The notes under the pieces were generated by a model. It was given only the letters and a program-made list of their open reading frames with translations, made no database searches and had not been told where the DNA came from. Below are positions 4,811 to 51,125 of a DNA stretch of 54,082 bases, in pieces; the stretch's first letter is position 1, and each line of letters begins with the position of its first letter. The stretch lies in the IMG/VR virus record IMGVR_UViG_3300031653_000003, positions 1 to 54,082 of that record, one strand, 5' to 3'. This stretch comes from a virus. Both the position numbers and the translations under genes were made by a program.

Positions 4811-4967
4811 ATCCAAATGGAAGGTCGGTTATAGTAGCGCGACTGGCAAATATGTACCAGTCCCATTATTTGGAGATATGAATTACAGAGACGCCAAGGC
4901 CGAGTGCAATCGGCTCAATAAAATCAAAGCGGACGCAAAGCAAAAGAGCGAAAAAAAACAAGATTGA
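4803..4967 (+). CDS. Small basic protein, 54 residues
   Basis: Starts at an ATG inside the end of the helix-turn-helix gene (8-bp overlap) and reads MNKSKWKVGYSSATGKY onward to a lysine-rich tail. Looks like a small SH3-like or nucleic-acid-binding protein; function unknown. Its stop codon lies within the -35 box of the next promoter. Confidence 0.55.
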   Translation: MNKSKWKVGYSSATGKYVPVPLFGDMNYRDAKAECNRLNKIKADAKQKSEKKQD

Positions 4968-46141: not shown

Positions 46142-46426
46142 ATGGAATTGCACGAACTGACAGGGGAAATTGAAGCCAGGATCAGACGGATTTCACAGAC
46201 TGAGAAGTTGTCGATTGCAGAAATAGCGGAGCAAAAATTTGGTCTAACCTTTTCCGCGCTTTACAAATACATGGGCGGCGTGCGGGTCAAACCTCGCAAG
46301 ATTCTGATCAACACAACCGGGCTGCGACGGCTAGGCCCGTATTTTGCCCAAACCGGCGATATTGAAATGCTGAACTACCTGGCAAGCTACGCTCTGGGGG
46401 TTGAGGTAGAGGTGAGAGTAAAATGA
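46142..46426 (+). CDS. Helix-turn-helix early regulator
   Basis: A 94-residue protein with a helix-turn-helix at residues 15-45 (KLSIAEIAEQKFGLTFSALY) and a C-terminal helical part. First gene right of the divergent promoters, so it may control both. Repressor-like by position. Confidence 0.65.
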   Translation: MELHELTGEIEARIRRISQTEKLSIAEIAEQKFGLTFSALYKYMGGVRVKPRKILINTTGLRRLGPYFAQTGDIEMLNYLASYALGVEVEVRVK

Positions 46427-46827
46427 GCCAGCTAGAATTAACTGTAGTTATGCCGTACATTCCCCAGACCAGCGTTAACGCCTGTTACGGGCAATCACGG
46501 TGGGGTGGAAAATATCTCAAGCCGGAGGCCCATTGGTGGAAAAACATTTTTCGACAGCGACTGGGAAACCAATTAGAGCGCGGGCAATTAAAAAACATAA
46601 CGCCTGATGTAAAAATAAGGCTTTCGGCCTTTTTCCCCCTGCAAAAAGGGCAGAAGCCGGACGCGGAGAATTTTCTCAAATTGGCCTCGGACGCTACCGC
46701 CGAAGAACTTGGCTTTCACAGTGACCATACCTTTATAACCGGCGTGGAGCAGGTGAGCCATAGCAAGGACAATGGCCGGGGGATATTGGTTTACGAGATC
46801 AAAATACCGTTAAAACTCAAGGGGTGA
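46423..46827 (+). CDS. rusA: RusA-family Holliday junction resolvase
   Basis: A 134-residue protein. KPDAENFLKLASDATAEELG followed by SDHTF matches the RusA signature (KPDxDN...DAL...D), the acidic metal-binding active site of this endonuclease, which resolves branched replication and recombination intermediates before packaging. Length is typical (120-140). Coupled by a 4-bp overlap to the regulator gene. Confidence 0.85.
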   Translation: MSQLELTVVMPYIPQTSVNACYGQSRWGGKYLKPEAHWWKNIFRQRLGNQLERGQLKNITPDVKIRLSAFFPLQKGQKPDAENFLKLASDATAEELGFHSDHTFITGVEQVSHSKDNGRGILVYEIKIPLKLKG

Positions 46828-47276: not shown

Positions 47277-47588
47277 ATGTCTCAAAAAATTAAGTTGGCA
47301 GAGGCGCTCTTGCGCCGCAAGGAATTACAAAACAAGGTTGACCAGTTGCGTCAAATCCAACGCGACATGTTGTCTAAAATGGTATATAAGCGGCAAAAGG
47401 TTTCCGAGGATTTTGACGACATTGCGGCGCAGATTCCTACCCTGGAAGCAAACCAGGTAACGGCTGAATATGACCACTACGCCAAACAATTACGTTTGGT
47501 TGATGCGGCTATTCAGCAAGCCAACTGGACAACTGATATTGAAGTTGGCGTTACCGTAATGCAGGACTACAAGGCCGAAACCGAATAA
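47277..47588 (+). CDS. Coiled-coil early protein
   Basis: A 103-residue protein with ribosome site GGAGG. A long charged coiled coil (LAEALLRRKELQNKVDQLRQ) resembles small septation-ring-like or DUF-type phage proteins. It ends 7 bp before the left arm of the permuted tRNA element. Confidence 0.68.
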   Translation: MSQKIKLAEALLRRKELQNKVDQLRQIQRDMLSKMVYKRQKVSEDFDDIAAQIPTLEANQVTAEYDHYAKQLRLVDAAIQQANWTTDIEVGVTVMQDYKAETE

Positions 47589-47595
47589 TTAAATT

Positions 47596-47950
47596 ATTGC
47601 CGGGTTGATAGTGGTAACAATCGCGTTGGGGTAAAGGCTGCTCGGTGCCTTAAACCGGAGGGGAAGGCCTACCCCGTTGCAACTGAAGCCGAACAGTAAA
47701 ACGGCCATAAAGCGGTACTTGATGTCACTGGTTCAAATCCAGTTAGGAGCGATTGTTCCTATAGCTCAGTGGTGAGAGCGCAAGTCCTTAATGTAGAGGT
47801 CGGGACTCTCTTTAAACTCCTGGTAACTCCGAATATAATAATCTTTTACAGATTACACCCGATTGGCCGATTAAGATTACACCCGATGTCCGATTGTAAT
47901 TATTCCGACTAACCAAACCCTGGGGTTGTTACCACTATCAACCCGGCAAT
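47596..47950 (+). ncRNA. Permuted intron-exon-like RNA containing a permuted tRNA
   Basis: A perfect 25-bp inverted repeat (47596-47620 with 47926-47950) closes a 355-nt element. Inside lie, in order, a structured block (47621-47712) with pairings GGGGTA/TACCCC and CUCGGU/ACCGGAG; tRNA 3' half; 4-nt linker; tRNA 5' half; and a second block with two GATTACACCCGAT repeats (47851, 47875). After U47788 a P1-like helix forms: AGUCCU (47783-47788) with GGGACU (47802-47807), U.G at the cleavage point; G47712 precedes the 3' half as a terminal G would. P3/P7 core not assigned with certainty. Confidence 0.72.
47713..47788 (+). tRNA. Circularly permuted tRNA (3' half then 5' half), predicted 76-nt circle
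   Basis: 3' half: anticodon 3' strand ACTTG (47717-47721), ATGTC, T arm ACTGG-TTCAAAT-CCAGT, acceptor TAGGAGC (47744-47750), G73. Linker GATT. 5' half: acceptor GTTCCTA (47755-47761), TA, D arm GCTC-AGTGGTGA-GAGC, G26, anticodon 5' strand CAAGT (47781-47785). Stems pair 7/7 (one G.U), 4/4, 5/5, 5/5; U8, A14, G15-C48, G18G19, A21 and the T loop are canonical. If joined U47788-C47713 the loop is CCUCGGU, anticodon UCG (Arg), with C instead of U at 33. Confidence 0.85.
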
Positions 47951-47965
47951 TAAGGAAATTCAAAA

Positions 47966-48169
47966 ATGAACACCCAAACCGATCTAAGTGACCTTGAATT
48001 ATCTACCCGGCTGACCGTAATGCTGGACTCCAGAATTGCCATAAAGCGGCTGGCAGATCAGCAGCCGAGGGACTCGCTTGAGAGAGAGTTGTACCTGGCC
48101 GAGGCCGAGCGATTGGCCGATGAGGCGCGGGAATTGGAAGCAATATTGAAATTGTTAAAAGTGGGGTGA
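47966..48169 (+). CDS. Small helical protein
   Basis: A 67-residue acidic, all-helical protein with AAGGAAA ribosome site, 15 bp after the right arm of the permuted tRNA element. Leucine-rich heptads suggest a coiled coil. Function unknown. Confidence 0.62.
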   Translation: MNTQTDLSDLELSTRLTVMLDSRIAIKRLADQQPRDSLERELYLAEAERLADEARELEAILKLLKVG

Positions 48170-48502: not shown

Positions 48503-48593
48503 AACCACTTTTTTGGGTTGCCTTTTCGCCCCCCTTTGTGTGTTTAGGGACTGCGAACAGGCGGAAGGCAACCCAAAGGGGTGGTTATTTTTA
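48503..48593 (+). terminator. Long leader hairpin / attenuator
   Basis: A 22-bp stem, 48503-48524 (AACCAC...TTGCCTT) with 48565-48586 (AAGGCAACCC...GTGGTT), three G.U pairs, followed by ATTTTTATT. It lies between the promoter at 48414 and the gene at 48615; its asymmetry (all three G.U pairs read as T on the 5' arm) is compatible with an RNA function. Confidence 0.72.
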
Positions 48594-48614
48594 TTCCCCA
48601 TAGACGAGGACAAA

Positions 48615-49439
48615 ATGAGTGGAATATACCGAACAGTCAAGAACAAAGAATACTTCCATGCCAGCAACGAACCCTTCAACGATGAACGTCTATCATGGGA
48701 AGCGAGGGGAGTTATCGGGTATCTTCTCAGTAAGCCGGATGGCTGGGAATGCAGAAATTATGATTTATTAAATAAAGGGCCATCAGGGGAGCATAAACTA
48801 AAACGAATCTTGGCAGAACTCCGGCAGTATGGGTATTTGCGACGTTACCGGGTTCATGCGGATGGCGGGAGATTTGATTGGGTAACAGAGATTTATGAAT
48901 CGCCAAAACTCAATCCAACCATAGGGCGGTTTTCCACCAATGGTTCACCCACAGATGGTTCACCCACAGATGGAAAACCGCCCTGTATAGATAAGACTGA
49001 TTTAGATAAAACTGATTTAGATAAAACTGAAGAAGAAGCCCCCCCTCCCCCTAAAAAAGAAAATGGAAAATACGAACCCTGGCAACTATTAGCCCGGCAG
49101 GTTGCAGTAAATTGTAAGCATGATCTGAAGCTTCTTCGTAACGGCTCATTAAAGAAAGTATCACAACGTTGTGATATTGCCGGCCAATCCCTGGCCGAGA
49201 TAGGGGCCACGGTTGACAACCTCAAAGATCATGCCGAATGGTGGTATAAAAACGACTGGCGAGGCAAGCAAAAAGAAGATGGAATCCCCGGCAGTCCACC
49301 GACCCCGGAGCAAATATTGGAGACCTGGGGCCAATTCAAAAATGGCTGCACCAGTAATGGCAATGGCCGGGTGGCTGCACCTTTGACCCCGGCGCAGATG
49401 AAACGGGCGGAACAAATCAGGCAGGAAGATAAACAATAA
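48615..49439 (+). CDS. Replication initiator / replisome organiser-like protein
   Basis: A 274-residue protein started at 48615 (GAGGAC upstream). N-terminal winged helix-turn-helix (FNDERLSWEARGVIGYLLSK ... LKRILAELRQYGYLRR) typical of phage replication initiators that open the origin and load helicase. A linker with short tandem repeats (GSPTDGSPTDG, DKTDLDKTDLDKT) joins a C-terminal domain. Located just before the DnaB gene. Confidence 0.78.
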   Translation: MSGIYRTVKNKEYFHASNEPFNDERLSWEARGVIGYLLSKPDGWECRNYDLLNKGPSGEHKLKRILAELRQYGYLRRYRVHADGGRFDWVTEIYESPKLNPTIGRFSTNGSPTDGSPTDGKPPCIDKTDLDKTDLDKTEEEAPPPPKKENGKYEPWQLLARQVAVNCKHDLKLLRNGSLKKVSQRCDIAGQSLAEIGATVDNLKDHAEWWYKNDWRGKQKEDGIPGSPPTPEQILETWGQFKNGCTSNGNGRVAAPLTPAQMKRAEQIRQEDKQ

Positions 49440-49521: not shown

Positions 49522-49704
49522 ATGGCAGGAATTAAATTGTTTAGAATGAAAATTCATTGTATGTATTGCGGTTCAAACTATGTCACCGAGCCATCATACA
49601 AACCCGGCAATAGCTACGGTGGATGTTGCCCGTCATGTGCAGTGGAACAGAAGTCAATTATTCGCCGGACTATAGCCGAATTTCAACGGCTGCGTGGGAA
49701 ATAA
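49522..49704 (+). CDS. 60-residue zinc-ribbon protein
   Basis: CMYCGS and CCPSC pairs make a zinc ribbon in a basic small protein, with AAAAGGA ribosome site, directly after the promoter. Overlaps the long upstream extension of the DnaB frame but not its real start. Confidence 0.68.
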   Translation: MAGIKLFRMKIHCMYCGSNYVTEPSYKPGNSYGGCCPSCAVEQKSIIRRTIAEFQRLRGK

Positions 49705-49751
49705 AACAATTAAGCATAGACGAAAGTTATAAAAACAATGGAGGCATTACC

Positions 49752-51125
49752 GTGACAGAATCATTACCAGGAACGATCCCCGATAGACTACAACCCCATA
49801 GTGTTGAGGCCGAGCAAGCTGTTCTGGGCAGCCTGGGCCTTGACCCCGGCCTTATCGTAAAAATCGCTACGGTACTTAATCCGGCTGATTTTTATATCGA
49901 AAAAAATGGCTGGATTTATTCAGCTATCCACGATCTTTGGAATGAGGGCATTCCCGCCGATACCGTAACCCTCAATGATAAATTGGAACAGCGGGGCCAA
50001 TTGGCCCAGATTGAGCCGGGCTATTTTGGCGATTTGGTAAACCGAACGCCGACCTCTTTTCATATCGGCTATTATGCCAAGATCGTGCGGCGTATGTCAG
50101 AACTGCGTCAGCTTGGAGACGCTGCCGGGGAGATCGCCCGCCTGTCCTATCAAGACACCGAGGATACCGGCGAGGTTATGGGCCGGGCCGAGGAAATATT
50201 ATTCAAGGTCACTTCTCAGGATGTAACTAACGGCCCCCGACCACTGCGGGTGGGCATTGAAAAACATTATGACCGGGTAGATTATCTTCAGAATCACAAG
50301 GGGCAGCAAATTGGAATCCCTACCGGTCTTTATGATCTGGACAAGTTATTGGGCGGCTTGCAGCGGTCTGATATGATCGTTATGGCCGGGCGAACCAGGA
50401 TGGGAAAAACTTCACTGGCCTTGAATATTGCCCTTAATGCGGCCAAGAATTATCAACGCCGGGTAGCTGTTTTTAGCCTGGAGATGTCAGAGGAACAACT
50501 GGCTCAGCGTATGATCAGCGCGGAAACCGGAATCGATTCTATGCGACTCCGCAACGGCGATATTAAGGAGGATGAGTGGCCGGTATATTTGCAGGCCACT
50601 AACATGCTGGCCGCCCTCCCTATTTTCATTGATGACACCCCGGCTATTTCGGCTTATGACCTGCGGAGCCGGGCGCGCCGGTTACAAGCCGAGCATGGGC
50701 TTGATCTACTCATTGTAGACTATATGCAGTTAATGAGGGGGGATAAAAAGAGTCAGAATCGGGAGCAGGAAATAGCCGGGATCAGCCGGACGATCAAGGC
50801 CATTGCCCGTGAGTTGAACATCCCTGTTCTGGCCCTTAGCCAACTCTCAAGGCGGCTTGAATCACGGAATGACAAACGCCCGATGCTTTCAGACTTGAGA
50901 GAATCCGGTGCGATTGAGCAAGATGCTGACGTGGTGCTGTTCATTTACCGGGATGAGATTTATAACCCGGATACCGAATTCCCCAACATAGCCGAGATCA
51001 TTGTGAGCAAGCACCGCTCAGGCCCGTCGGGTGTTATGTCTGCCTATTTCAAGAAACATCTAACCCAGTTTGTTGACCTGACTATAGAGCAGGCAGACCC
51101 GCAGGCGTGGGTGATGGAGTATTAG
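49752..51125 (+). CDS. dnaB: Replicative DNA helicase, DnaB family
   Basis: A 457-residue protein started at GTG 49752 (GGAGG 7 nt upstream). It has the DnaB N-terminal domain (PHSVEAEQAVLGSLGLDPGL) and a RecA-like ATPase domain with Walker A GRTRMGKTS (about 213-221), Walker B LLIVDYMQLM and the DnaB motif LSQLSRRLESR...RPMLSDLRESGAIEQDADVV. Normal length for a hexameric fork helicase, unwinding 5' to 3'. Confidence 0.96.
   Translation: MTESLPGTIPDRLQPHSVEAEQAVLGSLGLDPGLIVKIATVLNPADFYIEKNGWIYSAIHDLWNEGIPADTVTLNDKLEQRGQLAQIEPGYFGDLVNRTPTSFHIGYYAKIVRRMSELRQLGDAAGEIARLSYQDTEDTGEVMGRAEEILFKVTSQDVTNGPRPLRVGIEKHYDRVDYLQNHKGQQIGIPTGLYDLDKLLGGLQRSDMIVMAGRTRMGKTSLALNIALNAAKNYQRRVAVFSLEMSEEQLAQRMISAETGIDSMRLRNGDIKEDEWPVYLQATNMLAALPIFIDDTPAISAYDLRSRARRLQAEHGLDLLIVDYMQLMRGDKKSQNREQEIAGISRTIKAIARELNIPVLALSQLSRRLESRNDKRPMLSDLRESGAIEQDADVVLFIYRDEIYNPDTEFPNIAEIIVSKHRSGPSGVMSAYFKKHLTQFVDLTIEQADPQAWVMEY

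Follow-up and report, generated by a model that had tools for sequence, protein, structure and literature searches.

Permuted tRNA genes, in which the 3' half precedes the 5' half, are found in algae and archaea, and they are reportedly the subject of a review by Soma (2014). Circularly permuted group II introns are also said to have been described by Roth et al. in 2021. Among noncoding RNAs with a tRNA-like part, YrlA uses this part as an effector, while another part of the RNA binds a ring protein (PMC8394870). The phage RNAs GOLLD and ROOL self-assemble via kissing loops, and GOLLD sometimes contains tRNAs in its linker (PMC12286853). In addition, some defence systems are documented to act by cleaving tRNAs, and some phage tRNAs to evade this attack (PMC10264068, PMC11555353).

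The window analysed in this study is the whole 54,082-nt stretch of viral DNA in IMG/VR record IMGVR_UViG_3300031653_000003. It contains a tRNA-like module in which the 3' half lies before the 5' half, and the parts of this module are as follows.

47713-47788, plus strand: circularly permuted tRNA-like module, acceptor stem capped by a GATT loop (pairing and strict pattern search)
47717-47721: 3' strand of the anticodon stem, ACTTG, followed by a variable stretch, ATGTC
47727-47743: T arm
47744-47750: 3' strand of the acceptor stem, TAGGAGC
47751-47754: linker, GATT
47755-47761: 5' strand of the acceptor stem, GTTCCTA
47764-47779: D arm
47781-47785: 5' strand of the anticodon stem, CAAGT

The reversed order of the halves and the GATT linker had been proposed in an earlier, sequence-only reading of the locus, and both were verified in the window together with their coordinates. 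That reading also held that all stems pair apart from one G.U, which agrees with the pairing of 7/7 positions in the acceptor stem (one U.G), 5/5 in the T stem, 4/4 in the D stem, and 5/5 in the anticodon stem; a complete cloverleaf is thus present in permuted order. Its view that a chance origin is very unlikely is likewise upheld, as a strict permuted-tRNA search, which required full pairing of the T (5/5), acceptor (7/7), D (4/4), and anticodon (5/5) stems together with a TTCRA T loop and a D loop containing GG, returned one match in the window and none in 400 first-order Markov-simulated sequences of equal length. Neither ARAGORN nor the Rfam tRNA model calls a tRNA at this module. As encoded, no acceptor end is free for aminoacylation, the stem being closed by GATT in the window and by GAAA or other loops in the other permuted members. 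A separate 7-nt anticodon loop was not identified in the window element, and an anticodon decoy therefore cannot be the whole function of this element.

The RNA that contains the module starts 7 nt past the end of a gene of the DUF6847 family and ends 15 nt before the next open reading frame.

47277-47588, plus strand: DUF6847 gene (PF20935, DIP1984-type; 103-aa product), constant neighbour of the RNA (Pfam, E = 4.8e-9)

The encoded protein passes the curated cutoff of PF20935 (36.8 bits against 27), and a search of PHROGs assigned it to no clear family. Its AlphaFold model consists of two long helices with a mean pLDDT of 65; this low-confidence model is similar to 3kdq, a structure without an assigned function, and is too weak for a binding fold to be identified. 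Other genes near the RNA in the window encode a RusA-like resolvase (46423-46827), a replication-initiation-like protein (48567-49439), and a DnaB-like helicase recognized by eye (49623-51125), and in relatives, too, several genes next to the RNA belong to replication or recombination. Elsewhere in the window, the open reading frame at 742-1401 has a CxxxCxxC-like motif (CPHDCTYC) and putatively resembles proteins of the radical-SAM type.

The productive probe for relatives was the protein neighbour rather than exact RNA patterns. Scans of viral contigs with exact patterns (the window tRNA sequence, a 5'-domain pattern, or a 3'-domain pattern) gave 0 to 2 matches each, a general permuted-tRNA pattern scan returned mostly tandem tRNAs, and a blastn search of annotated phages with the element yielded only tRNA fragments and chance matches. 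DUF6847, on the other hand, led to 55 viral contigs and then, by an alignment-based scan, to 80 that overlap with these; with three contigs from genomes, the set comprises 91 loci. In nearly all of them, the DNA next to the gene was seen to contain the flanks of the window element. Two profile HMMs, with 62 positions for the 5' domain and 102 for the 3' domain, reach E-values down to 1e-23 and detect at least one domain in 89 of the 91 loci, and 76 distinct elements remain after removal of duplicates. Every 3'-domain match (84/84) is on the strand of the DUF6847 gene. Among 143 other loci, the RNA was matched only in L179, L188, and L193; these repeat DUF6847 loci, sharing their permuted tRNAs and flanks in identical form with L015 and the L033 group. 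Only three matches to DUF6847 were found in the genome collection, each in a genome that is also positive for the RNA profile, and the 3'-domain model gave one true match (a Legionella genome already in the set) and one false match (a simple repeat) in 299 genomes of one phylum. Because the family members are related, statistics that assume independence overstate the significance of these and the following comparisons.

Both the RNA and the protein are present in 13 Vibrio phage records (the PS32B/PS35B group and 1.264.O), and two such records that were inspected carry no annotation of the RNA. In 1.264.O and PS32B.1 (L204 and L205), the RNA occupies an unannotated gap between the DUF6847 gene, labelled "hypothetical protein", and two short genes, which in 1.264.O are sigma-factor-like. 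No Rfam family reached its gathering score in the window or in 23 relatives, except for tRNA on some inserts; the viral contig of L212 also contains an int-alpA RNA (RF02996) at 4886-4952 that is unrelated to the element. Searches of the published literature, preprints (bioRxiv) excluded, gave no description of the RNA or of the function of DUF6847. From the comparison of loci, the RNA family and its architecture are very probably real, and the family is apparently undescribed.

Across the relatives, the insert enclosed by the 5' and 3' domains is of three kinds: a tRNA in normal order, a tRNA in permuted order, or an anticodon arm, which may be accompanied by a T arm. Approximately 25 relatives hold an unsplit tRNA, and roughly as many hold a bare anticodon arm. 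The permuted tRNA-like RNA that the sequence-only reading had placed in a phage recurs in approximately 15 to 18 related phage elements, with its flanks included in one structured RNA; the attribution of this arrangement to a permuted group I intron-exon with a circular tRNA did not stand. The permuted members are the window, L010, L015, L023, L024, L029, L032, L033, L044, L046, L051, L056, L212, L221, L238, and probably others. Their acceptor stems are capped by short loops, and several of them carry a separate upstream anticodon arm (e.g., ATAGT-TTCGTAT-ACTAT in L033). In L015, L024, L029, and L056, two tRNA-like bodies stand in series, with the break at the variable loop in one and at the anticodon in the other, which suggests duplication followed by re-permutation.

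ARAGORN made 28 calls among the inserts, nearly all of them unpermuted. A near-perfect acceptor stem was observed in 11% of the unpermuted inserts, compared with 84% of 997 control tRNAs from phage contigs, and CCA was present in 7% and 47%, respectively. The inserts therefore look non-translational, with acceptor ends that appear unsuited to charging, and a few unpermuted ones, e.g., L005 with its CCA, could be working tRNAs. U36 is enriched in the displayed anticodons (48/65, compared with 416/993, or 42%, in the controls; Fisher p = 5e-7), which we regard as suggestive because some of the 65 family anticodons were assigned manually and the loci share ancestry.

The element is enclosed by an inverted repeat of 25 bp without mismatches, and the following features surround the permuted module.

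47596-47620, plus strand: 5' arm of the outer helix P1, perfect 25 bp with 47926-47950
47926-47950, plus strand: 3' arm of P1, pairing with 47596-47620
47628-47632, plus strand: P1b, GGGGT pairing with ACCCT at 47917-47921 (read from the sequence; equivalent pairing by eye in relatives)
47623-47681, plus strand: 5' domain, an H-type pseudoknot (PK1) and then a palindrome hairpin (nhmmer profile, E = 3e-10)
47635-47638 with 47647-47650: PK1 stem, AGGC/GCCT
47641-47646 with 47654-47660: PK1 stem, CTCGGT/ACCGGAG
47660-47675, plus strand: palindrome hairpin GGGG-AAGGCCTA-CCCC, loop AGGCCT at 47665-47670, candidate kissing-loop dimer contact with a covarying stem
47688-47705, plus strand: hairpin GCCG-AACAGTAAAA-CGGC, the CAGUAA-loop hairpin of many inserts (compensatory changes by eye)
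47795-47821, plus strand: putative pseudoknot PK2, preceding the 3' domain
47795-47798 with 47806-47809: PK2 stem, AGAG/CTCT
47802-47805 with 47818-47821: PK2 stem, GGGA/TCCT
47820-47921, plus strand: 3' periodic domain of approximately 12 CCGAnU-like repeats with a period of 7.6 nt, terminating in CCGACTAACCA (cmsearch and Fourier analysis)

The arms of P1 differ in sequence among the loci and yet pair with each other. In 59 loci, the mean duplex energy is -34 kcal/mol for the true arms and -17 kcal/mol for arms swapped between loci, and 35 of the 59 beat 95% of their swaps in a test that is blunted by arms common to some loci. The 5' domain shows covariation at columns 22-36, 23-35, 24-34, and 25-33 (86 to 95% pairing with 2 to 5 pair types), and the most variable pairs of its pseudoknot and hairpin are canonical in 82 to 98% of cases, compared with an expected 40 to 56%, again with two to five pair types. 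The hairpin loop is a Watson-Crick palindrome in 43 of 49 family members, or 48 of 49 when G.U is counted, while its sequence varies: the approximately ten kinds include GCGC, GGCC, CCGG, TGCA, TCGA, ACGT, GTAC, AGCT, CTAG, and CATG. Of these counts, 32/49 are tetramers found by a script at fixed columns (approximately 3 expected) and the remainder were read from the listed exceptions; a palindrome at any loop position is expected by chance in approximately 9 of the 49. Since the inner pair of the palindrome would leave a two-base loop, it cannot form intramolecularly, and a kissing dimer is the natural and, judging from the aligned loops, probable reading of this self-complementarity. Compensatory changes in the CAGUAA-loop hairpin were seen by eye in L009, L010, L031, L039, L045, and L048, and analogues of PK2 were drawn by eye in L009, L017, L020, L021, and L023; the strands of the PK2 region pair at -6.9 kcal/mol when native and at -5.3 kcal/mol when swapped (Mann-Whitney p = 1.6e-7).

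The 3' domain takes a different form. It spans approximately 99 columns (about 100 nt) almost without indels, and a sequence-only model in cmsearch matches the window, which is part of its training set, with an E-value of 1.8e-23. No base-pair covariation was detected in this domain in 76 sequences, and RNAalifold gave no fold. Its Fourier peak at 7.6 nt was reached by none of 5000 column permutations, and the autocorrelation has peaks at 8, 15, 22-23, 30, and 38. The domain reads as 15-nt double units in Vibrio phage PS32B, and the double repeat is clearest in L204 and L205. Two divergent DUF6847 loci, L057 and L058, combine a tRNA and a palindrome hairpin (TGTCATGACA) with an A-rich repeat (GAAACTAAGAAAC) that replaces the CCGA repeat domain, and possibly represent a second subtype.

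The sequence-only reading had interpreted the locus as framed like a natural permuted group I intron-exon. On such a model, the flanks would self-splice, and the 76-nt circular tRNA set free in this way would undergo later processing. The splice point of the permuted tRNA does fall in the anticodon loop, the 25-bp arms would bring the halves together, and G47712 precedes the 3' half. A P1 with a U.G pair (AGTCCU/GGGACU) can also be drawn; however, its strand overlaps and competes with PK2, a pseudoknot that has counterparts at the equivalent place in relatives. The flanks do not always interrupt an exon at the splice position: in relatives, flanks of the same family enclose unsplit tRNAs and lone anticodon arms, and thus they are not halves of an intron that splits a tRNA. 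Group I families gave no match in 47560-47980 even at E-values up to 10 and none at the gathering score in the 23 relatives, and a conserved P3-P8 or P4-P6 core was not detected in the flanks by Rfam at permissive E-values, with the sequence unrotated, or by 3'-domain covariation. The presumed 5' part of the intron corresponds to the 99-column domain, where the lack of covarying pairs indicates that there are no conserved intron-core helices, and this candidate was rejected. As the permuted acceptors are loop-capped, sometimes by GAAA (L238 and L051), a structural domain fits better than a tRNA precursor. The permuted group I interpretation is strongly disfavoured by these sequence comparisons, and we give it next to no weight.

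Another candidate is a YrlA-like Y RNA, i.e., a permuted tRNA-like domain joined to a stem to which a Ro60/Rsr ring protein binds and which anchors a nuclease. The effector domain of YrlA is similar to the D, T, and acceptor arms of a tRNA (PMC8394870), and a weak YrlA match is found at 47701-47806 (29.7 bits, E = 1.6e-4). This score falls far short of the RF02553 gathering score (69), in many members the tRNA is unpermuted or the D, T, and acceptor arms are all missing, and the constant partner is DUF6847, whereas no TROVE (Ro60; PF05731) protein was found among the phage genes of six phage records, including that of the window; such a Y RNA is very unlikely. The scaffold could instead carry functional phage tRNAs or help them mature, with the permuted and anticodon-arm forms as decayed versions. 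Several members hold full tRNAs recognized by ARAGORN, and the GOLLD linker offers a precedent (PMC12286853), but the systematically imperfect acceptor stems and the rarity of CCA argue against this proposal, and in the permuted bodies the T, D, and acceptor stems remain fully paired and the acceptors are capped, unlike products of decay; we consider it unlikely. A role in virion or replication assembly, in which the track of approximately 12 repeats would wrap around a ring protein while the tRNA-like part acted as a recognition handle, would suit the 7.6-nt repeats and the replication or recombination genes that flank several elements. Nothing, however, connects the RNA directly with a ring protein, and the flanking genes vary, DUF6847 being the sole constant neighbour seen, which leaves this role somewhat more improbable than that of a carrier.

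The explanation that we prefer is that the permuted tRNA is an exchangeable tRNA-like module of a structured phage RNA family of approximately 280 to 410 nt, encoded beside a phage-type DUF6847 gene and used as a tRNA mimic, with a probability of roughly 0.6. The architecture, the linkage to DUF6847, the exchange of modules, and acceptor ends of a type ill-suited to charging are well supported by the comparison of loci. The RNA may be released by cleavage of a polycistronic transcript, as suggested by its close spacing to the genes on both sides and by an outer helix suited to RNase III. Two copies would be joined via the kissing loop, and the repeats would offer a protein oligomer a single-stranded track to bind, DUF6847 being the obvious candidate for this protein; genomic linkage is the basis for naming it the repeat binder, an assignment that we put at a little under even odds. 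The resulting particle would display the tRNA mimic for a purpose other than translation, and the mimic may occupy or mislead host factors that recognize tRNAs during infection, such as anticodon nucleases, modification enzymes, and other tRNA-binding proteins. A bait for host tRNA-targeting factors is the function we favour, because the literature records phage defences that act by tRNA cleavage as well as phage tRNAs able to escape these defences (PMC10264068, PMC11555353), although in itself it remains doubtful. Also doubtful, and proposed tentatively, is a new class of viral ribonucleoprotein, in which an RNA dimer kissing through palindromes carries a DUF6847 oligomer on a track of approximately 12 sites and presents interchangeable tRNA mimics that subvert host tRNA-targeting defences or enzymes.

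If this explanation holds, a widespread phage RNA has a near-obligate protein partner, and evolution has plugged whole, permuted, or partial tRNAs into it. The permuted tRNA topology would then have arisen more than once beyond eukaryotes and archaea, and the family would provide an RNA repeat with a conserved 7.6-nt period as well as a testable setting for the purpose of phage tRNA-like RNAs. Cultured Vibrio phages (the PS32B group and 1.264.O) carry the RNA, which makes it testable at the bench.

The element resembles GOLLD and ROOL, which are phage-encoded structured noncoding RNAs, often near tRNAs, with an occasional tRNA in the linker (PMC12286853); their self-association through kissing loops would have a counterpart in the dimerization predicted from the palindromic hairpin loops. 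On the other hand, it is approximately half their size and has a constant protein neighbour, a periodic unpaired 3' domain, and permuted or truncated tRNA modules, and the Rfam models of GOLLD and ROOL match neither the window nor the 23 relatives. With YrlA (RF02553), a noncoding RNA that imitates the D, T, and acceptor arms of tRNA in its effector part, it would share the character of a protein-bound RNA; its insert type varies, however, and its 5' and repeat domains are absent from the YrlA model. In contrast to the permuted tRNA genes of algae and archaea, its module sits in a larger scaffold with a looped acceptor and shows no sign of a mature linear tRNA. Reversed exon order between complementary arms is a feature that it has in common with permuted group II introns and engineered permuted group I introns, whereas the searches above detected no intron core in it and its flanks enclose unsplit tRNAs as well. 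Finally, the neighbouring protein belongs to the DUF6847/DIP1984 family (PF20935; structure 3kdq), of which the phage version is short, at approximately 95 to 103 aa.
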